Source of the DNA: Branchiostoma floridae
Taxonomy: Eukaryota > Chordata > Leptocardii > Amphioxiformes > Branchiostomatidae
DNA: 64,000 nucleotides
Direction of reading: 5' to 3'
Assembly (NCBI RefSeq): GCF_000003815.2
Contig: NC_049981.1
Coordinates: 14,778,581-14,842,580, forward strand
A program made the translations under genes and the position numbers. The notes beneath the pieces are model-generated. The model had not been told where the DNA came from, searched no databases, and worked only from the letters and a program-made list of their open reading frames with translations. Below, piece after piece: positions 32,601 to 60,427 of the stretch (position 1 is the first letter of the stretch; the number at the start of each line of letters is the position of its first letter).

Positions 32601-35600
32601 TACATTCTAGACGTTTTTCAGGAAGGTGGTTGAAAGGGCCAGATATAGCCCATATTGCTTTGTATGACACTTGGATCAACGTTGCTTAGACCAACAACAT
32701 ACAGCACTGCTTTAAGATCAGTAACAAAGAATTTGTTTGTCCCTGAGTTAATGGCAATAGATCATAAGAAAGTAAAGTAGTCGACAACCACTGCAGTGAA
32801 ACATGTTGCTTTTTCAAGTACTAGTAGTAGTACTAGTGCAATTTGGCCTCGCCACGGCTCACGGTTTCAGCTACTGAACACTGGGTCACCCCTACCCTTC
32901 TCTGTAAGTGTGCTGGGATGCAAAGGTTTGGCACCTGAAGGTAAAGAACATATATGTACAGAATCTAATCGGAAATCATCCCTCTAGCTTTGATAGGCGG
33001 AAAGACTTTCGGAGTGGCAAAGAAAGTTCACCTGGTGGCCGTGCGGACGATGAACCAGAACAGCTCCGGCAAGACCGAGTACGTAACACACCGTGATGTT
33101 TACTTCATGGAAAGGAAACATAACGTTATATTTTTGCTTCCTCTTCTTCTTCCATTCTAAAAACATATGTTTATTGAGCTGGACGATACGGTAGTAGCCA
33201 TGGTCACAGGTTAAGTAGCAGACACCCACAGGTGTTCGACTACATTCTGCAAGGGACAGGACAGAACTGGAGGGGCTGGTCATATATATATATAAGATTA
33301 TGTTTGACTGAAAATAAACAGTGCAGTGGTTTGTTAGGTTAGACCTCATGAAGGTAACATTATGTACTTGCCTGCAACTTTTACCTTTCTAGTTTATCTA
33401 TTTTCATCAATGTATATAGAAGTATATAACCTAGCCTTCCATTGACATTATCCATTCCAGTGACGGTCTTGTAAAGTTCAATATTTTGGTCATAATATAC
33501 GCACAGGGCCTATGTTATCAACAGTTGTTGTCGTAATATTATAGTGATAACGGGGGTATGTTTTCATATCTACAGTAACCTGATACTAGCCATTGAGTGG
33601 ATCACCAAAGACGTGCAAAAACACAAAGAGAAGAAACCCACGTACAAGGCCATCACCAAGTAAGGGCAACTTTCCCTTGTCTTCACAGTATCTAAGTGCT
33701 TAGCAATTGTTAGATGTTAGATGGTAGATAGTCAAAAAGCCTGTAGATTGCGCACTACACAGAACAATACATGTCCTGTTGTTGGTGTTTTCTTAATTCC
33801 AGCATGTCAGTAGGAACTTCACGTTCTGCTGCGCTCAACGCCGCCATTGCTGCTGCAGCCAACGCGGTGAGTTCTGGGTAATCAAAGATGTCGTTGTTTC
33901 GGTTATAACATCCGTTTTATAAAATCAAGAGCAAACATGATTATTACCGACTGTGCGATGCCTACCGAACTTTGATTTTGTTGAAACCTTAGATGGCGTT
34001 CATTTGCATAATTTATTAAGTTATTTGATAATTTTTTTGCTTGACAACTGCATATGATGCAACCTACTCAACAATTATTGGAAACTACTTTAAATATAAG
34101 GGTGAGATGATATATCTATACATTCTTTGATGGGGTTTCTGGTGTATATGCACTCCCTTGTATGTGTTCTTTACATGTATGTCCTATATTTACAATGCAG
34201 GAACATGTAAAAAGTTGCATCTGACATGTTCATTACTGTCTCCACTGTATGTTTTCCAGTCCATGCTCTTTGTGGTTTCGGCGGGAAACGCCCAGACAGA
34301 CGCCTGTAACGCGTCCCCTGCCAGCGCGGAGGCAGCGTAAGTAATAGGCTGGTTCATCGTTTAAACTGCGCAGGCGCTGTCAGTGCAATGAACTGTGGGT
34401 AATATGTCAAAGTTGAAGACCCCGGAGACATAACAAAACACTCTGGACAAGGCCTAGACAAGAACTTTGGGGCCTTCACCTTTGACACATTACCCACGAT
34501 GCATCTCGCTACGCATGCACAGTTTAATCCACGAGCCGGCTTGATTTCTTAGCCTGCTTGATCCCTTGTAAGCGCCGTAGTAGACTCTATCCCAGGCTAT
34601 TTCGTGTTCCTACTGGTTCCTGATTGTATGCAGTATGATTGCTACCGGGTTTAGCTTGAATCCACAACACCAACATTGAGACAATACAGACTGTTTACAC
34701 TGGTGCTGAAATGCCTTCCAATGCAAGGACCTCAGTTTCTGATAGCTAACGCGTTTCTCGTTACATCTTTCACTCCACCACAGGATAACAGTTGCCGCTA
34801 CCAACGCAATCGACAAGTTCTCCTCAACTTTCTCAAACTTCGGTGCATGCGTGGACATCCTTGCCCCGGTGAGTACACGATACATATCGAGCACATACCG
34901 TATCATCGGTCCAGTGGTTAGGGTTTTGCGATCTCATTGAAAGGCCTGGTTTCGATTTTTTCTTTTATGCTTTTTGGTTTGGATAGCGAAGATGGGATCG
35001 TGTTCTATTCCTGATATTGCTGCCGAGAGGCTGTGTCCTTGGGAATCCGGAAAGACATTGCACGAGTTCCTTACTTCAACCAGGTGTAGATGGGTGCCTC
35101 TCAACCCGAAATCAAATTGTCTCAAAAAATAAGAAAAAATCAATGATCTTACAAATGAGGTAAAGTGATAAAAGTCACGTCTATTTTCTTGTATCAGGGG
35201 GAAGACATCCAGTCTGCCTGGATCAACAGCAAGTACTCCGTCATGAGCATGACTGGCACGTCCCAAGCTGCGCCGCATGTGGTACGTGATCAAATCGCCA
35301 GGTGTCAGCACTTCACTATCTATTCAGTTTCACCAGCCAGTATTGCAGAGGAAAATGGTATAGCGGAACGAAGCAAAATGTGCTATTTTGATAGCTTCAA
35401 GTGCTACTGTTAGCCTCAGGCATCAGACCTCGACACATCAAGGAACCCTTCACAAACAGCGCACTGTAGTCTCACTACCATGTTTCTATCATGATTAAAA
35501 AAAAAACACCCGTTAAGAATGGATCCTTTATCTTTTGTTTTACTTTCCTGTAATTTCAGACCGGAGTGATCAGCCGGTACCTAAGCTTCTTCCGTGATGC

Positions 35601-38413: not shown

Positions 38414-41400
38414 CTAGGCAGAAATCATGCGGCGGACCATGTAGTTGAGGATGCCACCATGGCTGAAGTACGTTAACTCCACAGGAGTGTCGAACCGCAC
38501 CAACGCTTTGAACGTCCGCTCTTCCCCATTCACCTACAAGGTTGGGAGAAAAAAATGTTCTTCATTGATTAAGTCTTTAAGTTTACAGTTGTCAATCTAG
38601 AAAAGTTTCCACTATTTGCAACACTGTCTCAAGTTGGTATGATTATTTATAAGACTACACAAGCAGTAATTCATCCTACTTATTCTGTGCCTTGTCCACA
38701 GTACCTACATGTATGCAATACCAGTATGTTAAGGTAGTGACAAAAGCCGTAAAATGTACCAGGAGTTCATTTTGTCTGAAAACTTACCAAGTATAAGATA
38801 AGCAAAAGGACAAGATACATATGAAAACACTAGACTCTTATGCTGATTTTTTCAGACCAGCATACATGTATCTTATATCTGATAGCCAACAAAGAGATCT
38901 ATGCCGCTATGTGTGAAATGTTACCTTTATGTCGATGGTCTGCCCAGGTTGTATGTCATCAGCTAGTTGTATAGTGAAGCGCTCCTTCCCGGTAAGTCCG
39001 AGAGACTCGGCAGTCTCCCCAGGTAGGTACTGTAGAGGGATGATGCCCATCCCTACCAGGTTACTCCTGTGGATCCTCTCATAGCTCTCCGCTATCACTG
39101 CCCTGATGCCCTGGGGAACAGTTACAAGGCTTACCTCAAAAACGCCGCTTTAGGTTTTACAAAAACATCTATTGGTCAAACCTTGTTAAACCCAGTTTAC
39201 ATACTTAACTCTTAAGAAAACAAATATTCTTATTCAGTCCACAAGGATTTAATCTGCCAATGTGTGAAATGTTACCTTTAAGTCAATGTATTGATTTACC
39301 AATCTCTTGCTATTTTAGCTGCATCCAAGGCCTCTTAGCAGCAAAATTCCTTGCTTTATTGCCAACCTACCTGCATCCAAGGCCCCTTAGCAGCCCAGTC
39401 TCTAGACGACCCAGACCCGTATTCCTTCCCTGCCAGAATGATGACAGACTGGCCTTCCTCACGATACCTCACTGCAGCATCAAACACATCCATCTGCACA
39501 AGGGAAAATGTTAGAGGCTCTTTAAAACTTGTACAAGCAGTACACATACACACATACACACACACACACACACATCAAAAGAGATCGACTCTCTGTCAAT
39601 AGAGATTGCAATAAGGACACTAGGAATGTGTAAAGGTCTCCCAAGTCCTAAATGTGATCGAAAGTGACATGAATCAAGGTTCTGATTGTTTGAAGGAAAA
39701 TCTTAAAATTGGTCTCTTCCCTGACATATAAACATGTACATACTGACAAAACTAAACACGCATGAGACAAATGGCATTAAAGTATTAATTACAGTTAGGA
39801 GTCATGAATGAACTTACTGTGTCTCCAGAGGGAACGTGACAAGTTTTTGGAGAAGCCTTGCCGATGAACTTGTTGAGCAGGCGGATGTTGGCGAACGTTC
39901 CCCTTGACATGACGGCGTCGTTGCCACGCCGACTGCCGTACGAGTTGAAGTCACGCGGAGTCAGTCTGGAGATATGGAGAAAACATTTACAAGCAAATGC
40001 AGGATATTTCTCTTGTACATGTATTTTGAACCTCAACGAATTGTACAAAACAGTTCTCCAAAAATTTTGACAGAAATTAGCTTGCCTGTCACTATTGTTT
40101 TGAATGCATACTACATAGATGTACATGGAACAGTGCTATATTTGGATATATTGTTAAACCTGTCTATAGCGACCATGAAATGGTCACAGTAGACAGGTAG
40201 TCAATATAGACAGAATTCTTGATAATGGACCACCAAAAGTAGCCACCCACAACGGCCAGGTGGTCCCTATTCAGAGGTCGTCACTAGTACATGCAATATT
40301 TGACTGCAGTCAATTCTTAGGAATGATCCTTAGCTGAAGAAACAAAACAGAAGTAGAGTGGAGACTTACCCCTTGCTCGCCAGATAGCGCGCGGCGGGAC
40401 TGTTCCTAGCGATACTGCCAGCTGGTGAGATGTGGTCTGTCGTGACCGAGTCCCCCAGATTCAGCAGCGCGAAGGCATCAGTGATTGCCTGGAGTGAAGG
40501 AATCTCCGCAGTCTGTTGCAGAAAAAAAAGCTTAATCACATCTTTATCCTTCTGGGCCACAACTTAATTATACTGCATCAAGACCAATGTTGTGGCTAAG
40601 CACAATTGTACAATTCGTTTAATGTAAATTGATTTAAGTTTGCAGGGATTTAATTTCCCAGTAGGGAGAAAATGGAGTGGTTTTGAGTTGGCAGAAGTGC
40701 TATAATAGTCACATAATGTAAATTAATAAAAACTCTGAAGTTGATCTGCATTTACAGTACACTACTGTCAATTGCAGCTAGAAAAAACACTATAAAGTTT
40801 TCATAAACATCTGGAAAAAAGGATTACACGAACAGTGTGTACATGCAAATGAGGTACGTACCATCTCTTCAAAGAAGGGGGGAGACTTGATGTACGTTGA
40901 CTTGGGATCCCATGGGTAGAGTTGGGCATCTGAAGCTTCAAGATTGTTCCAGGCCTCATTTCCATCCTGTAGGTACAAAGTTAAAACTTTAAAGACTTTC
41001 CCACACCTGTGGTGCACTGTGGTTAAAAACTAGTCTTCCCATTACACCAGGTAGCCATAGTTTTTAAACTATATAAAAATGTACTGCTGACAATGCTTGT
41101 CTGTTTCATGGACAAAATGTAGCATCCTTTCATGACAATGTAGGATCTTCAAAGATTTTAAGGGTCATATTGATGAAGGTATGCTGTACATTCACAGTAG
41201 CTTTAGTTTTGTGACGAAGAAAGGAGGTTTTAATCATGTTTGAAGTTCCACACTGACCTGTATCCTAGCGTAAACGTCCTTGAACATGGCAGGTACCACG
41301 TTCTTTCGCTCCACCTCCTGGATTTCAGCACGGGTCGGCCAGACATCACGTAGGAAAATCTCTTTACCATCAGCTGTCTTTCCTAGTGGGAAAGATGAGG

Positions 41401-44400
41401 AACTTAACCCCTGATAGTCTATGTTTTTAGTGTTTTAGCATGACTTCAGTGCATGGAGGTAGTTATAGCATAATGTATGACAAAGGAGCCAAAAACATGC
41501 TTCATTTCAACCCCAAATCCATCTTAAACAAAGGAATTTAAGTTACTGTCAAACTGTTACGAAAACTAAAAACAAAATTGTGTTAAAATTGTGTACCGAG
41601 TGGTTCAGTCTCGAAATCGATGCTGACAGTCCCTGCGATAGCGTACGCGATGACCAGCGGAGGGGAAGCCAGGTAGTTGGCACGTGTCAGGGGGTGGATA
41701 CGCCCCTCAAAGTTCCTGTTTCCAGAAAGGACACCGACCGCAACCAAGTCTCCCTGGAACATATCAAAGGAGGGACATTCTGTAAAGCTAATGGTACAAC
41801 CCGCCGTACATTTTTTGAGAGGCCACGTCCGCCACATATTTCTGAAAACGTTCAGGATGTACAGCGCAGGCGTGTCGCCAGTACAGGCACGTACGGGATG
41901 AATCTGCAGCCCGATGGCACACAAAGTTTTGCCAGGGCGTAAAGTTCTGCGTGGTCCAAAATCTGTCGGATTCCCTAAGAGTTTGTACGGAGGCGGTACT
42001 GACCACTTACGGATCCCAAAAGATCGCCCACGTTTTGCCACAAAGACAGCACGTATTTGCATGTACGGCGGGTTGTGCCCTTAGCTTAAGTACACTTTAC
42101 AACATTCCATTGGTCTAGCGGCCAGTTCAGCCGAAACAGGATCAAGAGGTTACATGTACATGTTTGATTCCTGTCAGTCCTGTCCTCAGTACTAAACACA
42201 ACTTTCCTCACTCCACCTAGGTGCTAACATGGTTGGAGAGGTAAAAGGTGGTGGAAGGAGAGGGATGAGCTCCACCTAACAATGTTGTGCCCTAGATACT
42301 GTAGATAAAGCCCCACTGCTATAACAGCCATAAACTTTAAAAGACTATGAGAGCTATATTACCATTTTACCTCACAGAAAAACAACACATTATGAAAGTC
42401 TCTACAACAATCTTTAGACTCATACTAATCACTGTTAAACCATGACAGTGCTTTTATATTTTGGTATATATATTTTGGTATACAAAATTTTGTATTCATA
42501 TACATAAATCATACCTGTGAACCTTTCTCAGCAATACAATGCCTCGAAGGCAGACTTACTCATACATAAATCTATATATGCTATAAAAACATCTATGAAC
42601 AGTTAAGTATTTTTTTTTTTAGTTATGTTTTTTTTACCTTTTCAACTGCCTCAGCCACTGGCTCAGGAAGGGGCCCGCTGTTCCCTATACATGTCATGCA
42701 GCCATAGCCAACAATGTCAAACCTGGGGAACACACAAAACAAGTACATCAACTTCTACATCTTATTCACTGAACCTAGGCAGGCCATCAGGAATAAAACA
42801 ACAAAACTTGGTACAAACTACAACACAAAGCAACAAGTACAGGAAATCTTGGAATGGTGGTTTGTGTTGACCTCTCCTGTTCATGACACTGAGATGTGTT
42901 CCCAACAGAACTCTTAGAACGACAATCTTAAAGACGGATAAAGCTTCTTTCCCCTTCTACTGCATAACGAAGTACTTGATAATAAATAAAAAATAAATGA
43001 GTTAACAGTAATAGGTCTTGGCCACAATACAGCCGGGAGTAATACTGTACACAACAAGAACACAAATAAATTACATTTATATATCATAAAAGATAATACT
43101 TGTTAGGTTGACTCAAAAGACAGATGAGGTGACACTGGAAAACGTTATCTTACCCTAGTTGCTTGAGATATGGTGTGACCCCACTCTCCTGTAGGTAGTA
43201 GGTAACAACCCCACTACCGGGGGACAGACTGGTTTTGATGTACGGCTTCACTGTCAGACCAGCCTCTACTACTTTCTTGGCCAAAAGTCCTACAAAAAAA
43301 TAAACAATTCTTCACCACTAATTCATATCAATGAATGAATAAATGAATACATTGAAAAGTAACTTCTGACTTTTTTATGACCAATTCTTACAAGTTGAAA
43401 TAAAAAGGCTTATTTTCTTTGTCCCCAGCAACATTGATTAGAATCTGCAGTTCATTTACAGACTGCTAGGTAGTGCTAATAACTACAAAATCATTCAAAA
43501 TAATTAGACTTTTAAGTGGTTTTCAAACCATGTTAGAACAATATTAATCAAAAAAGCCATAACAATGGTATTGAAAACTTTCCTTTTTTTTACTAAGTTA
43601 TACATGTACAATAGGAAAGTCTATAAAGATCATAAAGCAACAATGCTTATATAATAAACAGTGGAACATTTAGACAAGTCCACTTACCAGCTCCCAACAT
43701 GACAGAGGGGTTACTAGTGTTGGTACAGCTGGTGATGGCAGCGATCACCACACTGCCGTGGCTTAGTGCGTACTCCTTATCGTTGTATGTGAAGGGTATC
43801 GCGCTGGACTGTTTCTCCTTAGGAATGGCGAAACCCTTGAAGCCGACCTTGTTGGCGAGGCACTGTTGGAAGTCCTGCTTCATGTCGGAGACGGGCACGC
43901 GGTCGTGTGGACGTTTGGGCCCGCTCACCGAGGGCACAACTGTGGCCAGGTCCAGCTCTACTATCTATGGTTAACAAAAAGAAAAGGTCTTTAATTAAAA
44001 TGATCACATTGTGCGCAATACATGCCTATAATACTGGATGAAACAGGTCAGCATTTTTGTAATTACCACTGAGCAACCAAAAGTTTGACAGGTCACTAAA
44101 CAAATTACAAAAATAGGACAAATTCTTTCACATCAGGTGTGTTTTGTTGTCTTTTACATCAAACTTGTTGCATCATATTCATGAAGTTGCGGGTCACACA
44201 AATCCAGTTTTGGTAAGGAAGGAAAATATTTAAGTTTAAAAGAAGACATTTGTGTTCTTAATTCCAACATAAAGAAAGAAGAAAAGGTGTTACCTGACTA
44301 AAGTTAGGGTCCTGGTCTGTGTTGTTGAAGTCCCTGTACATGTTACAAGCTTTCAGGTAGGCTTCAATGTACACAAGCTTCTTCTCGTCACGATCTACAT

Positions 44401-45965
44401 AGAGTTAGAATATTTCTGATTAACTTTTCATAAAATTTGTGGAATCATCCATGTGTATATGGGGCAGCAATGATGACACAGAAGGCAATAATTACATTAT
44501 GGTGCTGTATGGTCTTTAGAAAGCTATATTAAACCTTTAATGGATTATCACAAGAAAACACAAAGGCTCCTGTAGCTCAACATACGTACTAGGAATAACC
44601 AAGGCAGATAAAAATTCTTTTTGTAGCAAAGAAAAGAACCCATTCTATACATGTATTTAAGGGTAGAGATTGTGACATGGCAGAATTGCTGATTCTACAG
44701 GTACAGATTGCAACTGACATGGACTCCAATCAGGCCTGGATACTAGGAATACATCAGGGTGGTCTCCTATTTATAAATCCTGACTTTCATCAAGTCAATC
44801 TATTGATCTATAAGGCCATGAATGGAAATTAAAATGTTGTGACTGTGCTTTAAGAGACAGTCTTTTAATCTATACAACATTGTGCTTACTTGTCTGTCTC
44901 AGATAGACCATAGACATGTCGTCCACTGGGAAGTAACCGACAGTAGCACCATATTCGGGACACATGTTGGAGATGGTGGCCCGGTCTGCGATGGACAGTT
45001 GGGAAACTCCTGGCCCGAAAAACTCCACAAACTTGCCCACAACTCCAACCTGACGTAAATGCTATAAGGAAGAAGATTTTAAAACTAATTATAAACACAG
45101 CATTCTTATTACAATGCATTTGAAGGGAACGTTTCTCTTTCTACTTCCAGTCTAGTATCATAACCAATACAAATAGCAGGATGTAGGTTAAATAGGATAG
45201 AAAAACATTACCTTGGTAATGGTCAATACTACATCGGTGGAAGTGACCAGCTGATTCAGCTGTCCAGTTATTTTGTAGCCCACAACTTGTGGTAGCACCA
45301 TGGAAATAGCCTGGCCCAACATCACAGCCTCTGCCTCAATTCCACCAACACCTTCGATGTTAAAAAACACATACTTTACTACTTTCATCTTTGACACCAA
45401 TACATTTGTATCACATCTATTCTAGTGATGATAAAGTAAAACAAACATAGATGCATTTCTGTGACTTGTTAAAGCATACTATATCAACATTTATCCTAGA
45501 GTCAGCTTTGTTATTAATACAGTATCATGGATTTCTTAAATACGAATTTTTTTAAACCAATGGCTTTTTGCAACAATTGGAACTCAATTCATCATCATCA
45601 TCATCATCGGTCGGCTGCAGCGCAGGTGACTGCAAGCTTCCTCCAGTTCCTCAATTCAATACAGTCAAAACTGCTCAAGATGACCATTCAGGGGAATGAT
45701 AAAATCTGCTGCATATGAATAGGTGTTCGCCATAGACAGGATTCTAAATATCAACAAAAATTTGGACACATTGGCCAGCCACTAGTACAGGTTTGAATGT
45801 TTCTCTCCCAAATTCTCTGACGTGTCCTTCCACTACCTTGTCCCCAGATGCACTAATACTCACCCCATCCCAGGATGCCAAGCCCATTGATCATGGTAGT
45901 ATGGGAGTCGGTGCCCACCAGGCTATCTGGGTACAGGGTACCGTTGGTGTTGAAGACAACCCTTC

Positions 45966-45996
<31 letters not shown>

Positions 45997-48900
45997 ACCG
46001 GATCCTGGCGGAACAATCAGCATGTTTCGCAGCGCCTTGGCACCCCACTGTGATATAAAACATGATTTACCTACTGAAGTGTAGTCAAGAAATTTCAGGG
46101 ATAGATGTACAGGACGATCCAATAGCCCTGCCACATGTTAAATGTAGAAATGCAAAATAAAAACCTAACAAAAGCAAACATTTGACAGACATGCAGTCGA
46201 CCTCTCATTGCTTGACCTGCTTATTGTCATTCTCTCATTGGTTGAACTGTTAATAGTGATGGACAACCAGGATCGGTGTATTGCTGAACAATTTTAATTA
46301 CATGTACTGACAGCATGGCTAAGAACATATCAAAACTTTAGCAAAAGAAACAACGGTGAAAGGCATAGGAAAGTAAATAAAGATCAAGCATTTTTTCTTC
46401 TTCATTTTTTCCAAAGTAAACTATGATTTTTTGCATCTCCTTGAGACTTTTGGATTTTTCTGTAAGAAGAAAAAAACAAACCTTAAGAAACTGGAAGCGT
46501 TCTTGGTTCCTTTGAAACTCCAGTTTCTGGTTCTGTTTAAGGGCATCTTGGCTGATTAAAGGGCAGACAAAAAACAGAGTTATCAGTCTTTGCAGTGTCT
46601 ACTTAAATACAAGTGCTTTGGTGAGGCACAGAAGCACATTTTTTAAAACTAAACCAAATCTTGCATTGATGTTAAGAAATTGAATCCTTTTTGCAAGGGA
46701 CTTTTACTTTATGGCTATTTTCATCTTTGATATGTATCTTGTTGTCATTCATGGGCCAAAGTGTGTGGGGGCTGGCCTTAGAAACAGTGTGCAAGTTAGT
46801 TTGGTTATGATAATATAGTTGAAAATTCAACCATATAGTGCATCCTGCAAGCTGCAATATAAAGCAATACAAATTACAATGCAGGAACAACTGAGGAAAT
46901 GGGGGTTAGTTGGTTATTGAAAAATGATTGATTGGATGTTAGCATAGAGAGGGGGAGGGATATGGTGGCCACCAAGCTGAGCACATATGGACTGATATGG
47001 AAAAAGGTTCATTTCCTTTGTGAGACTAAATAAGAGGAAAATTGGAATGAACTTTTGGTCAGTTTGCATGGTAACCAAAATGGAAAGAGAAAACTAGCTA
47101 CCTAGCAATGCTCAGCACATGTAAGAAGCTGCTAAGCAAAAATGTAAGCTGCAAAGCAAACTAGCAGAGTGCTAGGAAGGATCAAAAACGTTTGGTGACA
47201 GAAGGGCCAATTTCTGTCTCAACACTAGCAATCTAGCAATCACATGTCAATTTCAAACCAACAAAAATGCTTCATCTATGATTTTCATGAATGGAACAGA
47301 AGACAAATTTGAACAGCATCCTTCCTAGTCCCTGCTTAAGTCCTGCAGTGGCAAAACTCGTTACAAAATATGCACATTAAAAACAAGTCTCAAAAATAAC
47401 TACCAATCTGTAGGCTGTTGGTGAAAAGGACAAATTTCTTCTAGTTTTGGCAGGCCCGTGTTGAGACAGATATTGCACCCCTTAGCAGCACCCCCACAGG
47501 ATTTGGCTGGTACTGCAGCATTTGCACGCGATGCCGTTTGTCCCGGCCTAAGCCCTCCTCCTGGGTTTGGTGTATTTCTTACTATACTTGTGCTGTAAGG
47601 AGACAAAGTCAGTACAACACTTAGCTAAATGCTTGGGTTTTTTTGGCAAACAAAAACATAAGACCTTCTTTCCATGAGCTAAATATTTTTGACATTGGGG
47701 CATCACTAATGGTTAGCTGACCAGACAAAAAGGTCATAGTAACACAAATGTGATCCTTGTCTGCCACAAACATAGTCTACAAAGCAGAAGGAGTTATAAA
47801 GAATGTATTTCTTGTATGGAATGCAGCCGAACATAATAACATAGATGTTATTTGAGAAGCCATTTAGGTGCAAACTGTCCAAAAGATTTTCTTCTTCAAA
47901 ACATACATTCTGTGAATGTAGCTTAATTAGCAAAATGATTTGACTGTACACATGCCAAATGGCCCAAAGGAAAACTCCCATTGATTGATTGATTTTATTT
48001 TGCACTTTAAAAAATGATACATACAGAAAATTATAGAATACAACAGAACGTGCAAGGGGGGAGAAAAAAGCCATGTGGCTTATACAAACTCTCCCCCCGT
48101 CAAAATATACAAATCATGATACAATTAGATGGTCATGAAGATTATACATCGAACAATAATAAACCAAGTGAAAAAAATATAACTCAGTGATCATACATAA
48201 CGTTACAATTAATCTTAACATCAAAAACTGAAATTAGACAAAACTAAACATGATCAACAGATCATAAAGAAATTAGTCAAAATCATACAATTAATCATGC
48301 TAGCAAAACAAAATGAAAGCAAGTACAGATAACCAAGACAATGGGTGCAAAGACTGCAAACAAACAGGTTAAAGGAGCACCAAATACACGGAGTAATACT
48401 AAATGATAATTGAGCATAACATGATCAAAAACAAGGAAAAAAACAAATCAGGAGTAAATAGTTGGCTTCTCTATAAGGTTGTTTTTCATACGTTTCTTGA
48501 AAATGGAAAGGGACTGACAATTTCGTAGGGAAAGACTTAGAGTGTTCCATATGGATGGGCCTCTAAACATTATAGTAAATTGTGTTAGGTTCGATTTTGT
48601 TTTAATAGGTCTAAGACTATTTTGCTGCCTTGTACTGTGATTGTGAATATCTGCGTTGTACTTAAAAATGTCTTTATATAGGACTGGTAAGAAAGAATTA
48701 TTGTGAATAACTTTATGGACGAAAATGGCTGACTGCAATTTGTTTATGTCGTATACTGTCAAAATCTTCAGATTGTGAAAAAAAGTTGCTGAATTTGCTA
48801 TAAAAGAGGCGTTTGATGCAATTCTAACAAAACGTTTTTGTAGTAGGTGCAGTGGCATTCAAGAAGTCAAAAGTGGGCAGACAACATATCTTATAAAAAG

Positions 48901-51900
48901 ATGGTACTTGGTGATTTAGGGGGATACAATAAAAGGGAAGATTAAACATGCAATTAAAATGAAAGGTGTACAAGGGACAGCCACAGTAAATCAAATGTCT
49001 AAATGTTCCAACCCTGTCCACACTCTTCATACCTAATCAGCCACACCTTGGAGGTGAAGCCAAAAACAACCGTATTACTTACTGCTTGTTAGTTGATTTA
49101 AGTGGATTGGAATATGACACAAAAACTCTTATATTATATTTGTTGTCCCCTGTAGCTTTCATTGTACCATAAGCCAAGGAAATCTAATTTCAACATATAA
49201 CAGTTGCTGCACTTAAGTTTTGACTCTTTTTACTTCCATAAAACAATCAAGAACTACAAAAAACTCAGGCCAAAGCTTACCTCCTAGAGACATCCACTTG
49301 AACAGAATGGTCTATAACTAAGTCTGCCGGACAGACGGGGTTAATTTTGGACGGGTCCCCTCCGAGTCGCTTCACTGCATCCCGCATGGCTGCGAAGTCA
49401 ACCACCGCGGGAACACCTCTGGAATGCACAGGTACAAACCAACAAGTCAGACAAATCTTATTCTATATTAGTGTTACAAATACAGGAACACAAATAACTT
49501 TCCTAGGTGACATGAAAATAAATTTGGGAGGAAGTTGATAATATTGTTCATATTACACCACATTTTGAATGTCATTTTATGTGTACATGCATTGCTGTTT
49601 GTCTTATTGTACTTTTTTAAGATATTCACTAAGACTTCTCAAAACAATGTACATCATAATCACAATAAAACATTGCACTGATAACTCATTAAACAAAAAT
49701 CCCTGTTACCAAATCTTGTATATTTGTAATAACAAAAAAAATCTGGCAACAAAAGGCTAACTTTAAAGGCAGTTAGAAATCAATGATCATATGGTAGACA
49801 ACAATGAAGGCCTTACGTGAAGTCTTGCAGAATGACCCTAGCAGGCCTGAATGGTACTTCAACTGCCTTTGTCTGTGTTTCTTCCCATGACAGGATGTTC
49901 TCTACATCTTTGGGGTGGACCTGGAAGTTATCACAGTTCCGCACTGCAGACTCCAGCAGTACCCGGATGGAGAAGGGCAGGCGCTCTATTGGCGGACAGA
50001 AATTATGGTCATCACTTACATGAAGAACTTTTGACACTAATCTATTGAGATTTACCACATTTGTAGAAGGATCAACATCATCTGTAACCTTTCTAAGATG
50101 CTAACCCAGAGCCAAAGATTTGTACCACTAGAACCATGCACAAAGTGTGATTCTCAACATGGGCTGTCCAGCTTAATATGTATGCCACATCAAAGAGGAC
50201 AACTGAACCTAGTTTTTGCCAGAGTCCAGTGAGGAAAAAGTGTAAGGTGCCTTTCCAAAGGGCCCAACACAGGGGCCTGCCAGAAATTCCAATCTAGAAC
50301 CTTCATATTCTAAGTAAGCAACCCTAACCACTATACCACTTTGCAACATACTTAAAGCAGGCATGTTATTTTAGCCCTGTTTTTGTTTTCAGGTCTAAGG
50401 TGCTGTGCTTTTATTGTTCAATTGTTAATGCAAAATCAAAAACTTCACAGTTACACATTTTCAATTTCATTAAACCCCAACAGTGATCACAACTGGACTA
50501 CTCTCAAGTCTCATCAACGATTTACATGTATTCATCATGGGAAAGATTCTGCTACCACCATGTCTTCTTGTGACAACTCACCATATCTTGGGTCGTTGAG
50601 CTTGAGAGGGTTGTAGTAAGTGAAGGACTCCCCTCCCACCTCAAGGGAGGCCACACACTGTTGGAAGGGGTGGGCTGGAAGAGATGGAAAAGACTTAAAC
50701 CCTCTTGTTGCTATGTCATCTATGGCCAACACAAACATTTAAGTAGAGCTATACTGTCTAAAAACTGGTTTTATTCTAAACCTGAGACAGATCGTGGGTT
50801 TCACATGACATATCATAACGGCAACCAGAATTTCAAATTCTAATTTGGTTGCCTTTTCTTTCACAATACAGTCACCACTTTAACTTCATTTACTTTTGCA
50901 ACAGTTGCAGTAGGAAAAAAACTGAGTTTGTTGTGGTATGTTAAATTCACAGTTAAATTAATTGTGCAGTACAGTAGCCAGTAGGGAAGGTAACTAGATT
51001 TAGTAACCTTTCTTCAGCCAATCAGAGTGCGCCATTTCCATGACCCCAATATTTGACCCCAAATCAAGATGGCCGCCAAAACCAGGAAGATCCAGGAACT
51101 TTGAGGAAGTGGTTGACACATGATGAAATCTGTTTGCTTTTTGTCTTTTGGTACATTACCGTTTCATATTGTTACTTCCATTTTTTTTGGTGTCTGTGTG
51201 TCTATCTGAGTGTGTGTTTAAGTTTCCGAATATTTCTGGTTAGCATAACTTTAGAACCTCTGGATAGAATGTTAATACTAGATGGGAGAGGTGCCCTACT
51301 ATCAATATTGTAGTATTTACTTCATTAGTAATAGACTTATTACATGTAATAGACTTTATAGTAAATACATCGAACAATGTTTATTTTTGACACTCATGTT
51401 GTTAACATCAATAAACACATTTATGTACATCGGAATTTTAAACTTATTACACTCCTCATCTTGTAGTCCTTGTTCTGTTATGCATACTACATGTACTAGT
51501 ATATGTTGAGGCTTTCACACAAAACTTTGACCATATAGTCATATAAATATAAATCTAATTATTTAATTTAATATAATAATTTAATATATCAAAAAACAGG
51601 TAGTGTGCGAAGGTCACAAAGCACTGTCTTAGAGTCTCTATTGATTAAACATCCTCACACAACATCCATATATCAACATTTACTTTTGCCTTTTTGGTGG
51701 CATAACATTGAGGAACATAGTCATACAAATATAAATGATGAACAAAACAGATACCACAGGGCACTGGTAACTTCATTTAGTCCTGTTCCTAACACAACAT
51801 ATCCACATAAACTTTTGCCTCTTATGGTGATATAACACTGAGGACCGTAGTCATACAAATATAAACCAACAAAATTAGGGAACTTTACATGGCCTCTACA

Positions 51901-54900
51901 CAACTTACAGTATCTTCATTAACTTTTGCCTCTTTGACAGCACAACACTGAGGTGATTCTTATATCTAACATTACATAAACAAAGGTAATTTGTGACAGA
52001 CTAATTAGCTTGGCAGATGGATCAATCCTAACGAGGTTCAGAAACTGCTCCATATGATGTACCACATCATTGGCAAGTGTTGTTGTCACTTCCACATAGT
52101 CTGAATCTTCTTTTCAGTTGGTAGCAGTGGTCCATTTTGTCACCTATGGGCAAGCACAATATTTCAGAATTGACATACAAACCCTGCCACAGTAGTCCTA
52201 CCATCACATATTATTATACATGTCAATGCCTAGTCATGTCTGCAGAATATTTACTAACACACAAATCTACCTACAAATTACAACAGACTAAGTCCAGCAA
52301 AATAGACATTAAAGTACAGCATTTTTACAAATACTAGTAAAAGGCCAAAAGACCAAACTCCATACATGCGTGAACCCATCCCCAAAATACTGAAGACTAA
52401 AATGTCCTTCAAAAAATCATTCAAGTCATCAATTTTGTCGCCACAATGATCTCAGAAGTCACACATATTTCATGATTGTGTCAAAATGATATGCAATTGA
52501 AAATTACAGATAAAAAACGGCAGGACTCATGCCCATAGCGATCTCCGCAGAACAACGCCCCCTCCCCACCTTTAGCCATTATCGCTAAAATTGCCGCTTA
52601 TACCCGTTCAAAAAAGGAGGAAATTTTCTAGAACACCATCAGCCCCAAACCAACAATGTAGAAGCATGGTGGAGACTTTGATTCATTCAAGAAAATTTTT
52701 AGATTTGGTTCAACCCGCCGCGAAAGGCAAATACAATCATTTTTTCTACGAAGAAACAACCCGCAAGTGTGCAAATGTCCGTGCACTAACAATACGGCTG
52801 GCTGTCCCCGAGCAAGCAACTGGTCAACTTCAAAAACTCAAAAATTCTTTGCATCGCAAGACGAACAAAGACAAAATGGCGGAATCGACTCACGACACCC
52901 CAAACAATCACGGAAAAACAACAAAAACTACGACAAATTCCATGAAAATAACAAGTTAGACCAGTCAAATCACATGAAAAAATGAAGAAATGGACCGCTT
53001 ACCCGACGATTTGGCCGCCATTCCGGCCAGAAATTGTTGATTCTCGTGGTTTTTCGCCGATCAAAATTGGCTTCAGCGCTTTCCTCTTGTTTCCACAAGG
53101 GTTCTACAAGACGGATATGACGTATTTTGACCTTTGAACTGTTCTCCAAGCAGATATAGAGCCAAAATTCGCATTGAAAATGAACGGAGAGATAGCTTGG
53201 CATGGAAGGATCGGGTCCGCGGGAAAATGACGTCATGGCCCGGAGCGCACGCTGATTGGCTGAAGAAAGGTTACTAAATCTAGTTACCTTTCCTACTGGT
53301 AGCCACATGAAGGAGACCATTCGCGGTGTGGAGAAGTCACAGAGAAAACAAAACCATGAAAGTTTTGACCCTGTTCACATGAAAAAATTGCAAGTGAGTT
53401 AAACAAGGAATCCGATTGAAATTTTCTATCGGATTAAAAAAAATGTGTTCACATGAGTTTTATACAATCGGATTAAACTCAAACTTGCGACCGCGACCAC
53501 ACAATCGGATTAAACTCTTTACCGCGGCATGCGTCGTGTTTCCAACGACCACCGCGGGCACGCGTAGTTTTTCCAAAATGTTGCCAGACTACCTCATAAT
53601 TTTGAAGGATGTAGCGACATCGATATTGATTATAACTTGAGAAATCGGCCGGCTTTGGTCAGATTTTGACGCGTCGATGGTCCGCAACACACACTGACGA
53701 AAGTGGCCGCCTCTGGGTCATACGGGGTCATTGGGATAGTCTATTAGACTGGGGGTGGAAATGTTACGCGCGGTGTGATTATACTCTACATTTAACTATA
53801 TAAAATGTATCTGTTGCAGAAGTTGCATAAATAAGGCAAACTGCTACCAAAACATTTGACTTCATCACGTATTTATCTGAAATAAAAGTCTGTGTTTCGT
53901 TTAAAAAAACTGCTCACCCATGCTTGCATGCAGTGAAGTGACCCAAGCTCGAAATTTCTGTTTAGACACGCTTCCGACTGCTTTTCTCGTAGAATATTTG
54001 CTTTTTTAGTGGTGTTGGGACATTGGCTCCAACAACAGGAGAGAAACGAAACCATACATGTTATTTTCATGGGCAATATTGCCAAAATTAACCAGTTGGT
54101 CTTCTCACACTGCCGATTTTTGGAAAGAACCGGTGCACATGTTCCGGCGAATCTTGTGGCGTCCGGTTGTTAACCATAGCGGTAAGATGATTTTGCAAGC
54201 AAACTTGCCCATAAACTTCTTTTCTAATCCGTGTATCATACTTTTTTTGCCATGTTGTAGGTATGGTTGTATATCTAATGTCCACAGTACCCGTATGTAT
54301 GACGTAAAAACCATGAAACAAGCCCGAATCCAATCCAATTGTGTTCACATGGCGGATTCCGGTCAATCGGATTGCGCGCGCTGAATCCACCTCCCGAGGT
54401 GGATTGCAATCCTATCCAATCCAATCCAAAATGGGCAATCCAATCGGATTAGTTCTGTTCACATGGCTTTGGATTGGTCATTTTAATCGGATTCCTCGTT
54501 TAACTCACTTGCTTTTTTCCCATGTGAACGGGGTCTAAACTTACTATAAACACATGGTTTGTCAACAATTATTCTTTTCTCTACTTTAAAATCCCAAGGG
54601 ACCATTTACAATGTAGATTTAAACACCAAGATGACCCAGAGAGATAGCATTGTGGCACATGCTAGTCACATGATAACTTCATTGGTAATCTATCAACTAC
54701 TAGTAACTGATGACACAGCAATTCTGAGAAAAATCTGAATCAACCAAATATGACAAAGCCTTTGACTTCACGACTGTACCCTACTATTCTACTGTCTATT
54801 GTTGGTAATACCAAAGTTCATACAATTTAAACATTTCATAATTCCATGACGTAGCAATGAATCAAATATTGGTGTTTTGTCTTAGATCGATTGACAACTG

Positions 54901-55415
54901 CTTTGACTGGAAAAAAAAATTCTTTGACAAATCAAGACCTAGGTTATAAATCCTTATAAAAACAAGCACAAGGGTAGGACAAGCTAGATGTGATTACAGG
55001 ATATGATGTTAGAATTCCAGTCTAACCGGTCTCGTTCATCGTGATTTTCTAGTGCCTTCCTTCGTGAGTTTGGACCCTTAAGAGAGGAATGTACCACTTA
55101 CACGTCAGATGATTGACTTCTTGTGAACTTGGGATAGTACTACGTGGCCTACGTGACAACTGTCTTCTTCAAACGATATAAATACATTTACATACGTATG
55201 TAGTTTTCCTCATCATCATAATCTTCGTTTGTCTGTCAAACATATGCCTCATTTAAACACGATAACGTGATCATCCCTCTACCTAGGAAACCAGTAAAGA
55301 CCTAGCTGTGTTCTGACACAATTTTACTGATATTTTTGAGTCAAAAAGGTAAGGAAATGTGGCATATTTGTTCTGTAAGATTGAAAAGACGAAATGACCT
55401 ACCTGGATCCGCCAT
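38414..55415 (-). CDS. ACO1: Cytosolic aconitase / iron regulatory protein with IRP2-type cysteine-rich insert, 21 exons, 957 aa
   Basis: Exons 5' to 3': 55403-55415, 50582-50674, 49817-49985, 49281-49418, 47404-47592, 46482-46551, 45864-46047, 45212-45351, 44890-45061, 44294-44394, 43688-43964, 43154-43289, 42638-42722, 41597-41753, 41258-41382, 40862-40966, 40370-40512, 39818-39965, 39371-39493, 38925-39110, 38414-38533 (2874 nt, in frame). As an aconitase it interconverts citrate and isocitrate; without its 4Fe-4S cluster the family binds iron-responsive elements in mRNAs. Cluster ligands Cys503 ([10 protein letters not shown]), Cys569 and Cys572 ([13 protein letters not shown]) are present. 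So are SGNRNFEGR (599-607), TDHISPAG (743-750), [13 protein letters not shown] and [13 protein letters not shown] (841-853). Human IRP1 is 889 aa and IRP2 963 aa. Here a 63-residue insert at 138-200 explains most of the extra length. At 765 a Lys replaces the Arg expected from human IRP1 (Arg699, numbering from memory). Confidence 0.97.
39535..39577 (+). repeat. (CA)n microsatellite in aconitase/IRP intron 18
   Basis: Runs of CA/ACACAC at about 39541-39573, immediately upstream of exon 19 on the transcript strand. Confidence 0.8.
41786..42086. mobile_element. 301-bp MITE with about 27-bp TIRs and TAA target duplication (aconitase/IRP intron 13)
   Basis: The left end AGCTAATGGTACAACCCGCC is matched by the inverted right end (GGCGGGTTGTGCCCTTAGCT). 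TAA flanks both sides (41783-41785 and 42087-42089). It is GC-richer than the surrounding intron and has no gene. The structure fits a Harbinger-type MITE. It lies just upstream of exon 14 on the transcript strand. Confidence 0.8.
42105..42295 (+). mobile_element. tRNA-derived SINE
   Basis: It has an A-box-like TTGGTCTAGCGGCCAG near 42110 and a B-box-like TTTGATTCCTG near 42163. The tail TCCTCACTCCACCTAGGTGC ... GAGGTAAAAGGTGGTGGAAGG is shared with the copy at 23.4-23.6 kb. Confidence 0.65.
47404..47592 (-). CDS. ACO1: Exon 5 of the aconitase/IRP gene: IRP2-type cysteine-rich domain with CPFH heme-motif-like sequence
   Basis: This 189-nt exon encodes residues 138-200. It starts [14 protein letters not shown], has Cys170, Cys177 and Cys180 (Cys-x6-Cys-x2-Cys), and ends with [10 protein letters not shown], where Cys192-Pro-Phe-His195 lies. 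Cys201 is created across the junction with exon 6. From memory, vertebrate IRP2 has a 73-residue insert at the same point. It begins with a PNPGGG motif, has three regulatory cysteines, and ends with a CPFH heme-regulatory motif (Cys201/His204). IRP1 lacks all of this. Both splice sites are phase 2, so the exon is a symmetric cassette. Acceptor is CTTACAG, donor TTG|GTAGTT. Homology to the IRP2 insert is inferred from position, length and motifs. Confidence 0.93.
47980..48858 (-). mobile_element. Truncated non-LTR retrotransposon, reverse-transcriptase C-terminal fragment (aconitase/IRP intron 4)
   Basis: The minus-strand frame 48448-48858 (136 aa) reads like the end of a CR1/L2/Jockey-type LINE reverse transcriptase. 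It has the [13 protein letters not shown] start, an [20 protein letters not shown] block, an HNHSTRQ block, [10 protein letters not shown] and a FKKRMKN end. The downstream A/T-rich stretch ends in an ATCAATCAATCAA-like tail near 47983-47995, as common at 3' ends of such LINEs. The 5' part is missing. It sits antisense-to-genome but in the same orientation as the host transcript. Confidence 0.7.
50225..50350 (-). mobile_element. tRNA-derived SINE (aconitase/IRP intron 2)
   Basis: On the minus strand there is an A-box-like AGTGGTATAGTGGTTAGGG and a degenerate B-box GGTTCTAGATTGG. The body GGGCCCTTTGGAAAGGCACC also occurs in the SINE at 63.5 kb. Confidence 0.6.
50979..53298. mobile_element. 2.3-kb TIR DNA transposon, apparently non-autonomous, with GTAGC target duplication (aconitase/IRP intron 1)
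   Basis: The left terminus CAGTAGGGAAGGTAACTAG and the inverted right terminus (CTAGTTACCTTTCCTACTG) match over about 53 bp (50979-51031 against 53246-53298) with few mismatches. The 5-mer GTAGC stands outside both ends (50974-50978 and 53299-53303). I recognise no transposase inside. A degenerate tandem repeat (51.68-51.97 kb) lies in the middle. The superfamily is not clear: a 5-bp duplication argues against Harbinger, Tc1 and hAT. Confidence 0.8.
51660..51975. repeat. Three degenerate tandem copies of an about 110-130-bp unit inside the intron-1 transposon
   Basis: The core ACTTTTGCC ... ATAACA(T/C)TGAGGA ... AGTCATACAAATATAAA recurs at 51682, 51811 and, shorter and more diverged, at 51922. 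Confidence 0.6.
53367..54535. mobile_element. About 1.17-kb TIR element with CAATCGGATT subterminal repeats (aconitase/IRP intron 1)
   Basis: The left end GACCCTGTTCACATG and the inverted right end (CATGTGAACGGGGTC) continue through GCAAGTGAGTTAAAC and GGAATCCGATT as inverted repeats over about 50 bp. The motif CAATCGGATT or its complement occurs several times near both ends. Such subterminal arrays are often transposase-binding sites. No transposase gene is visible. The TIR resembles Harbinger-type ends, but I could not settle the target duplication. Confidence 0.7.
55403..55415 (-). CDS. ACO1: First coding exon of the aconitase/IRP gene (13 nt)
   Basis: The sequence reads ATG GCG GAT CCA G with donor G|GTAGGT. 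It joins exon 2 (50582-50674) as MADP-AHPFQQ. The start is chosen because it is the only ATG that splices in frame to exon 2 close to the CpG-containing promoter. The start codon sits inside an AAGATGGCGGA sequence, a YY1-type motif. Intron 1 is 4.7 kb and packed with transposons. Confidence 0.8.
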
Positions 55416-56925: not shown

Positions 56926-58572
56926 CCAAACACAGTACTGGTACAGTACTTGAATGCGTTCCTGACAGCTGCAAGGAAGGCCTCCCAGACACATTCCCGA
57001 AGGGTCCAGCCAGTGGACAGGCCAACCTCAGGGCACTGGCAGTGTTGAAGATTAGCAATTACTATGCCTGTGAATCATGAGTGCCACATGATGGGGCTAT
57101 GAATGGGGGGATCTGAGTAGCCTGACATGATAGCCAGGCCAGGTAGACAGGCCAGGTAGCCTGGCCTGGTAGACAGCCCAGTCTTTTAAGCGAACCCGTT
57201 TTTTTAACCTCCTTGTTGTAACACATCAAGGACGTTATATCAGAACACATCAACTGGTCAAGTTGTCTGCAAGTGTACTGTGTTTTACCCCAGGGACTTG
57301 TGACTTACCTTGATCTTGTTCTTGACTATACAACATCTAGACAGTTATTTACACTGTTCAACTCTATGATGCCCGCTATCGTTGGACAAATTTTCCCTTG
57401 GGATCACTTAAGTAATACATTTTTTGTATATAGATGTCTGTAGTGTTTGTGTCTGGACCCCTATCAATCATGTGACAAATTATCGATGCAGGGCAGACAA
57501 TCAAAGACAATGGGGGTCACAGGGGGTGTAATTAAGGAAAAGATGCCTGGCCAAAAGTCAACCAGGTGGAGAAGTGTGTTCTGCTGAATTTTGAAACCGC
57601 TTTCCCGAAGTGATCGCTACCCAAAGTACAGCACTTTGTCTTTATTAATTTTTTTCTTATCACTATCAGTCGGATGCATAACCCCTCCCAGTTTTATGGG
57701 AATAGCCTAATTTGATTAAATCACACTCCCGTGCGGTCCTTCTGTAAGCATTAGTGGTCTCATGGCTGCCATGCTGGGGTAATTGAGCAAGACAAATTCA
57801 AGTGCCAATTGAAAAGAGTGAATAAGAGTGACTTGGCTTTGGCAATATTATAGACAGTTCATGGTTTGAATTGCTAATACACAAGGTGAAAGGTGAAGAT
57901 CCCTGACTTCTTGTCCAGACCATGCATATGCTTGATATATGTGCAAAAGTATTTTGTTTATGTCTATGTGGCCTTCACCTTTGAGTTTGACATACATACA
58001 TTGTACACATTTTACTACCCATCTTGCAAATGCACGACATGCAGTTTAAATTGTGAACCAGTATATATCTAAGAGCACCATGTGGACATAATTATTATTG
58101 TAGATGATTAATGTTATATTGTATTATCTTCTAGGGAATCAACATTGCTAGCCTGTCTTCTGGCTTTCTGAGCATAGAGGAAGCTTTTTGGATTCATCCC
58201 TGGCATGGAAAAGTACAGGCAAGAGGCCTTATTGTCATCACAGAGACATTACAGACTTTTACATCTTACCTATCTGCACAAAAGCAGTGAAAGTCACAGA
58301 TGAGAAATTCTGTGTGTTTGAGTACAAGTGATGTCATCCCATAATTTGTCATTATTGACATCATCATCTTAAACAAAGTTATTGTCAAAATCTACTTTAA
58401 GGAAAAATTGTCTTCTTCTTGTTTCAAAACACAAATACTTCTAAATTCTATTTTTGGCCAATATACATTGTAACAAAGACAAGTTCAGCATTGAGATTCC
58501 ACCATTGACCAATCAAGAAGTTAACATCAACACAGACAGGATTTATTTTCAACCAATTACTGTCAAGTTGCT

Positions 58573-60427
58573 ATGGAAACCATGTCTGCCGATCCAACCA
58601 ATCAGATCCGCATCATCGAGTGGGATGACATGGACAAGCGGAAGTTTTACTCATTTGGTTTGTTCCTTTCGATGACAATCCGCGTGACGGTTTATCCGAC
58701 CACCCTCATCAAGACGAGACTTCAGATCCAGCGAGGCACTTCTCTGTATAACGGTACTTTTGATGCTTTTCTTAAGATAACAAGACAGGAAGGCATCAGA
58801 GGTCTCTATAAAGGCTTTCTAGTGAATAGCATATACTTGATATCTGGACAGATGTATATCACAACATACGAGGTCAGTAGACAGCAACTGTCCGGATACA
58901 GTAACTGGATCAAGTCCCTTGTTGGTGGTGGAATGGCATCGCTCGTCGGGCAAGGCATATCTGTACCGATAGATGTTGTTTCACAGCATTTGATGCTGCA
59001 GGGACAGGGAAAGGACAGAAGAAAAAAGCTGCCCAAAGAACGACTGACATTTGGAAAAGCACAGGCAGTGGTTGTAGAACTGTTCCGACGCGACGGAGTG
59101 GCGGGTTTCTATCGTGGATTCTTTGCTTCCATGCTTACAACCATTCCAAACAGTGCGCTGTGGTGGCCATTCTACCATTTCTATGCTGGTGAGTCATGTT
59201 CTTGTTTATTTGTTTGTCCCTGTGTGTTTCTGCAGTGCAGTTTCTGTTTAATATGCCAGAAAGGAGCCTTAGGTTAAGGGAGTGACGTCCACTACATGCA
59301 TCTTAGCCTTGTTTCAGACCCAATATTGTAAGCCTGTTAATGAGTAATTGCACATAGTCAGTAAGATAAATTGTACACAGTATATGTACATGTATGTAGT
59401 TATTCAGGCTAGAAGCTTAAAGTAGGTAGGGTTTTGTTTCCATACAACATTTCCCCAGATTGCTAAATGTGTGTACAACATGATTTAGAAAATCCATGTA
59501 AACAATTCAAATGTTACATACTAATGCTGATGTCCTGAATTATAATTTTTCAGAACAACTGGCATCTGTTGCTCCGTCGTACCTTCCCCATCTCATGCTG
59601 CAGGCTGTTGCGGGGCCGCTGGCGGCCGCAACCGCAAATACTCTCACCAACCCCATGGACATCGTCAGGGCCAGGTTACAGGTGTGTGTGTATGTCTGTA
59701 TCTATGAGTATGAGTATGTGTGTGTGTACGACCTATCATCATCATGACCCAAGTGGGTGTATTTGTGTAAGTTCGTACTAGTATGTGTGTATGTCTTTTA
59801 GTGTGTATGTCTGAGTGTTTGTGTGTGTCCTTCTGTGTAAGTTTGTACCAGTATGTGTGTTTGTGTATGTCTTTTAGTGTGTATGTGTATGTCTATGAGT
59901 GTTTGTGTGTATTCTTTTGTGTAAGTTTGTACTAGTATGTGTGTGTGTATGTCTTTTAGTGTGTATGTGTATGTCTATGAGTGTTAGTGTGTGTTTTTGT
60001 GTGTAAGTTTGTACTAGTATGTGTACTCCTACTCACACTCATTATTCGGTTTAACGGAAGCTAAACCGGATAGTGAATGTGTCCGTCTGTACATGTGTGT
60101 GTGTGTATGTTAGTGTGTGTGTCTATGCAAGCATGTGTGTGTGAGAGAGAGTGTGAGTTTGTATGTGTATGTATGCATGTCTGTGTCTATGCAAGTTCTA
60201 ACATCGAACCTCATCTATACATATCTTCACCTTAGGTTGAAGGAGGCAAGTCCATAGTAAAGAAGTTCAAACAGCTGTATGTGGAAGAAGGACTCTGGGG
60301 CTTCTCCAAGGGCCTGTCCGCACGCATCATCGGCTCCATGCCAACCACGTTCGTAATCGTTGTTGGTTACGAAACACTGAAGAAACTGAGCCTTAGGTCT
60401 GACCTAGTCCACACAAGGCAGTGGTAG
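58573..60427 (+). CDS. SLC25A44: SLC25A44-type mitochondrial carrier, three coding exons, 311 aa
   Basis: Exons 58573-59188, 59554-59681 and 60236-60427 (936 nt, in frame). The protein belongs to the six-helix mitochondrial carrier family of the inner membrane. It has three repeats, each with a Px(D/E)xx(K/R)-type motif: PTTLIK (42-47, lacking the acidic residue), PIDVVS (132-137, lacking the final basic residue) and PMDIVR (239-244). The start (IRIIEWDDMDKRKFYSFG), GFLVNSIYLISGQMYITTYE, the VPIDVVSQHLM stretch, SALWWPFYHFYAEQL and the C-terminal GYETLKKLSLR match the SLC25A44 subfamily, whose human member (314 aa) is reported to carry branched-chain amino acids. The first of two near ATGs (58573 and 58582) is used; either is possible. 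The gene is head to head with aconitase/IRP. Confidence 0.96.
59682..60235 (+). repeat. GT-rich variable repeat filling SLC25A44-like intron 2
   Basis: Imperfect units of about 75-120 bp built from GTGTGTATGTCTTTTAGTG, TATGTCTATGAGTG and AAGTTTGTACTAGTATG recur through 59.76-60.03 kb. They are followed by shorter GTGTGT runs to about 60185. Confidence 0.8.

Follow-up and report, generated by a model that had tools for sequence, protein, structure and literature searches.

Whether the 73-residue insert so far treated as the mark of IRP2 arose with that paralogue, or predates the duplication which gave rise to vertebrate IRP1 and IRP2, is the question raised by a gene of the lancelet Branchiostoma floridae, which encodes a protein of the aconitase/IRP type with 63 additional residues at the corresponding site. 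The gene lies within the window analysed here, i.e. the whole stretch of 64,000 nucleotides. The function of the IRP2 insert is disputed. In mammals, several laboratories found its cysteines and the whole 73-residue piece to be dispensable for iron-dependent degradation, but opposing data exist (passages of PMC2267205 and PMC2854138). Whether the insert senses iron or heme in mammals is likewise a matter of conflicting data (PMC2267205), and a passage of PMC2854138 describes it as apparently unstructured, with a largely unknown function.

In the literature searched, whose coverage leaves out some relevant older work, no report of the insert outside vertebrates was found. The title of Andersen 1998 reportedly speaks of two lamprey IRPs. 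Two sponges are reported to possess a homologue of IRP1 but none of IRP2 (PMC7034838), and Branchiostoma is among the species listed in PMC12475580.

The lancelet gene and its insert exon

The gene model was assembled manually, exon by exon, with splice sites picked by hand in order to preserve the reading frame. In this model, 21 coding exons encode a protein of 957 aa with no internal stop, and all 20 introns are of the GT-AG type. The protein scores 1325.7 bits with the family model TIGR01341 (cut-off 945) and matches the Pfam models Aconitase and Aconitase_C; by these matches it is a cytosolic aconitase/IRP, presumably already contained in public databases. The coordinates, residue numbers and motifs reported for the insert by the initial annotation were all recovered in the exon model, on the minus strand. 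The gene, the insert exon and the two exons flanking it are located as follows.

38414..55415, minus strand: cytosolic aconitase/IRP gene, 21 coding exons, 957 aa, hand-built model
49281..49418, minus strand: exon 4, starting at c.276, the equivalent of human ACO1 c.267
47592..47404, minus strand: exon 5, the insert, 189 nt, 63 codons, phase 2 at both ends
47553..47570, minus strand: PNPGGG, residues 146-151 in the exon model, the N-terminal conserved end (0 of 20,000 in the end-only shuffle test)
47466..47498, minus strand: Cys170, Cys177 and Cys180, out of register with human Cys168/174/178
47421..47432, minus strand: CPFH, Cys192-His195, equivalent of human IRP2 Cys201-His204 (3 of 20,000 in the end-only shuffle test)
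46482..46551, minus strand: exon 6, joined in frame to exon 4 upon skipping of exon 5

Exon 5, bordered by the acceptor CTTACAG and the donor GTAGTT, encodes residues 138.67-200.67 of the protein. One published exon border of human ACO1, the exon start at c.267 (given in an extract of PMC5850917), is found at the lancelet position and phase: with an ungapped three-residue alignment offset it corresponds to c.276, where exon 4 starts.

The genome was searched over 513 Mb in 431 contigs and a single IRP locus was found, with 20 exon matches; one further weak match, on a different contig (C13), falls in a region where another aconitase is present. Exon 5 itself has two other matches in the genome, with E values of 0.64 and 2.5.

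Two introns of the gene contain features of their own. In intron 1, 55-nt inverted repeats (50978-51032 and 53245-53299), 96% complementary and 2,212 nt apart, have the appearance of transposon termini, from a DNA transposon or MITE. Close to the insert exon, intron 4 contains a 136-aa open stretch (48451-48858, minus strand) which resembles by eye part of a LINE reverse transcriptase; a Pfam search of this stretch gave no match. Outside the gene, a piece of a mitochondrial carrier gene is located at 58525-59274 of the plus strand (Pfam Mito_carr, 1.3e-32), and open stretches at 30740-30982 and 35159-35410, also on the plus strand, resemble by eye prodomain and catalytic pieces of a subtilase, for which the Pfam search again gave no match. 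The open frames neighbouring the IRP gene provide one carrier gene and nothing usable for synteny.

Comparison with the insert of human IRP2

In a phmmer search of the PDB, the alignment to human IRP2 (IREB2, 6vcd_A) runs continuously across exon 5, whereas those to human and rabbit IRP1 (ACO1; 2b3x_A, 3sn2_A), which have no insert, stop at residue 138 and restart at 203. Between the same two anchors, 35 residues are found in IRP1, 108 (35 plus 73) in IRP2 and 98 (35 plus 63) in the lancelet protein. Prokaryotic AcnA belongs to the same enzyme family, TIGR01341, but differs in having no insert: the anchor spacing is 35 in 79 of the best 80 loci, out of at least 570 relatives, the remaining one (L017) being unreadable at this site. 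From these counts it follows that the insert corresponds exactly to the 63 codons of exon 5, whose removal keeps the frame and restores a spacing of exactly 35 residues, as in AcnA and IRP1.

The locus L017 lies on a contig labelled Rhodobacteraceae and contains an aconitase with a broken frame, whose similarity to the query roughly equals that of the best bacterial loci; it is possibly a eukaryotic contaminant. Among the Omnitrophota AcnA loci, the match continues into a second aconitase-family stretch downstream in L018, L023 and L076, and the same extension is suggested for L033 and L034 by similar locus lengths only.

The human IRP2 insert carries, at the same alignment position, PNPGGG at 143, Cys168/174/178/201 and His204. 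Lancelet protein and human IRP2 share the insertion site, PNPGGG near the start, CPFHxQP near the end and cysteines in between. When exon 5 was compared with the IRP2 insert, a local score of 70 was obtained, above those of all 20,000 shuffles (mean 27.9, best 66); an alignment no better than background, the outcome which the initial annotation had set as speaking against its own reading, was thus not observed for the insert as a whole. The runner-up among the 2,257 open segments of at least 20 aa in the window scores 41 against the same insert. The proposal that an IRP2-type insert is present at the IRP2 position is borne out by the continuous alignment, the anchor spacing and this score.

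The homology signal resides in the two ends of the insert, PNPGGG and CPFHxQP, where 7 of 10 residues near one border and 6 of the 8 residues of ICPFHQQP match IRP2, in the same order. For end pieces of 14 residues each, both selected after the motifs had been seen, the scores were reached by none of 20,000 shuffles (PNPGGG piece) and by 3 of 20,000 (CPFH piece). With a score of 21, the middle of the insert, containing the cysteines, is at chance level (shuffle mean 22). Cysteines are spaced CX6CX2C in the lancelet insert, as compared with CX5CX3C in human IRP2, and four of them per 63 residues represent a mild excess (p 0.038, with an assumed frequency of 2%). Exon 5 alone, used as the sequence query of the PDB, did not retrieve IRP2 even at E<=10.

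On these alignments, we conclude that the lancelet insert is homologous to that of IRP2 at its borders and in its position. The three cysteines assigned to the IRP2 type by the initial annotation are indeed present, but their spacing differs and the region aligns no better than shuffled sequences; there is no evidence in the alignment for inheritance of the triad from a common insert.

Relation of the lancelet protein to IRP1 and IRP2

After trimming of the insert columns (857 of 1,171 columns kept), the lancelet protein shares 72.3% of residues with IRP1 and 62.1% with IRP2 (identity); 145 sites are equal to IRP1 and not to IRP2, while 45 are equal to IRP2 and not to IRP1. Human IRP1 C437, C503, C506, R536, R541, S778 and R780, known as Fe-S ligands or catalytic residues, all have identical equivalents in the lancelet protein, in this order Cys503, Cys569, Cys572, Arg602, Arg607, Ser844 and Arg846. 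The exons carrying the cluster ligands and Ser844 are the following.

43688..43964, minus strand: exon 11, carrying Cys503, the Fe-S ligand equivalent to human IRP1 C437
42638..42722, minus strand: exon 13, carrying Cys569 and Cys572, the Fe-S ligands equivalent to human IRP1 C503 and C506
39371..39493, minus strand: exon 19, carrying Ser844 (IRP1 S778; Asn in IRP2) and Arg846 (IRP1 R780)

The residues R536 and S778, kept in the lancelet protein, are changed in IRP2 (R536K, S778N). Over a set of 25 IRP1 positions, 22 are identical in the lancelet protein; at K379 and N685 the lancelet residue matches IRP2 instead, and the equivalent of R699 is Lys. The lancelet protein also differs from IRP2 in the absence of Cys516.

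Trees were built with IRPs of two vertebrate species, the lancelet protein as the sole invertebrate IRP, and prokaryotic loci as outgroup. These loci were collected by a contig scan with an alignment (A1), which detected at least 570 relatives, the best 80 of which were retained as outgroup pool; a scan with the protein alone gave no confirmed relative among 31 pattern matches. The broken-frame locus L017, whose longest ORF ends short of the insert site, was left out. Four runs were performed, with 25 of the best 80 loci (first tree and its AU test), with 10, with the same 10 under LG+C20, and with 5; the trees compared in the last three runs had been optimised under LG+F+R4.

In the tree with 25 outgroups, the lancelet protein is placed outside IRP1+IRP2, with modest support for the union of the two vertebrate paralogues (58.9/72), and this placement is the best of the three topologies in all four runs. 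The AU p values for grouping of the lancelet protein with IRP2 and with IRP1 are, respectively, 0.013 and 0.41 (25 outgroups), 0.011 and 0.054 (10 outgroups), 0.045 and 0.042 (same 10, LG+C20), and 0.014 and 0.038 (5 outgroups). The IRP2 grouping is rejected by AU in all runs and by SH in two of the four, and the IRP1 grouping escapes AU rejection in two (p 0.41 and 0.054). Raw counts of shared-derived sites lean towards the IRP1 grouping, with 10 sites, as compared with 4 in favour of the best tree and 3 in favour of the IRP2 grouping. The other possibility raised by the initial annotation, i.e. that the gene is IRP2-like, finds no support, in view of the higher identity to IRP1, the retention of the equivalents of R536 and S778 and the AU tests. 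Under either of the two topologies other than the IRP2 grouping, the insert would be older than the IRP1 lineage.

Origin and possible role of the insert

Since the insert ends are homologous to those of IRP2 at the same site, the aconitase residues are kept and a grouping with IRP2 only is rejected by AU, the analysis suggests that the insert predates the vertebrate IRP1/IRP2 duplication and was later lost by IRP1. This had been proposed by the initial annotation, and it emerges as the most likely reading from alignment, spacing, insert score and trees. With good confidence, the lancelet protein can be regarded as a pre-duplication IRP, presumably bifunctional as IRP1 is and carrying an old insert exon, which IRP2 kept and IRP1 lost. 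A phase-2/2 exon would have been gained at the insert site before the vertebrate duplication; afterwards, IRP2 would have kept the insert (73 residues today) and lost the aconitase residues, and IRP1 would have remained an enzyme while losing the exon.

The gene would be a true IRP2 orthologue if the duplication were older than the lancelet lineage, with the insert as an invention of IRP2 and IRP1 lost in the lancelet. The common insert, the 45 IRP2-like sites and the two runs in which SH does not reject the grouping (p 0.116 and 0.061) agree with this, but it is made very improbable by the AU values in all four runs, by the 145 sites shared with IRP1, by the retained aconitase residues and by the missing Cys516. 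An independent origin, in which different exons entered the same phase-2 intron and came to resemble each other at their ends by chance or convergence, would account for the background score of the insert middle and for the failure of the exon-only PDB search; it is rendered unlikely by the matching border residues in the same order, and by the rarity of comparable scores among shuffled end pieces.

Exon 5 might also be a relic or a rarely used exon, the normal protein lacking the insert and the sequence being functionless. Its donor, TTG/GTAGTT, is the second weakest of the 20 donors of the gene, according to a rough frequency table, and skipping preserves the frame and yields the IRP1 spacing. 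On the other hand, all 63 codons are open, both end motifs are intact and the acceptor is pyrimidine-rich, while exon 14, coding for part of the enzyme core, has a donor weaker still; such a status of exon 5 is thus improbable, and inclusion of the exon can be presumed on account of the open frame and the motifs. A regulated cassette, giving an IRP1-like protein when skipped and an IRP2-like one when included, with the duplication fixing the two forms as IRP1 and IRP2, may be considered as a minor possibility.

In the proposed mechanism, the lancelet protein would act as a 4Fe-4S aconitase in plentiful iron and as an IRE binder after loss of the cluster, and the cluster switch would be the main form of iron sensing. 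Cluster-free protein may be removed by FBXL5, which is reported, in a passage of PMC4112806, to act on cluster-less mutants of mammalian IRP1. An FBXL5 orthologue was detected in the genome at C5:7665000-7674999 (G000, locus L118), where exons for the hemerythrin, F-box and LRR regions follow one another in this order, with eight pieces at E<0.001, 39-70% identical to human residues 1-409. A Pfam hemerythrin search of the genome found nothing, a miss which is false given the presence of this orthologue.

Six ferritin-like loci were found in the genome. A pattern scan of loci L097-L113 revealed one IRE-like hairpin (L107:4328-4357, on contig C4 of G000), with the loop CAGTGA. It lies on the same strand as the matched ferritin exon, about 5.5 kb upstream, between a TATATAAAA box, which precedes it by some 65-75 nt, and a donor-like GTGGGT directly behind it, and scores 15.6 bits against Rfam IRE_II, where the cut-off is 30. 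The hairpin is a weak candidate for one ferritin IRE, with a putative connection to the ferritin transcript. In the whole-genome IRE search, none of the 82 scored among 214,772 candidates was above cut-off, and Rfam at gathering score detected a tRNA and no IRE in 11 ferritin-locus stretches. According to the discussion of a razor-clam paper (a passage of PMC12896564), ferritin mRNA of the lancelet Branchiostoma belcheri has a confirmed IRE.

The insert itself would probably form a flexible loop of domain 1, whose ends, PNPGGG and the Cys-Pro-Phe-His motif of heme type, may constitute a site of contact with proteins or heme; as judged from its residues, the CPFH end fits such a heme contact. 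The further proposal of the initial annotation, an early origin of iron or heme sensing through the insert, stays hypothetical, given the conflicting mammalian results.

If the insert predates IRP2 and sits on an intact aconitase site, IRP1 would be, in that respect, the derived, exon-less copy. The conserved parts to test would then be the two ends of the insert, not its cysteine-rich middle, and a natural protein with both features would offer a direct test of insert function.
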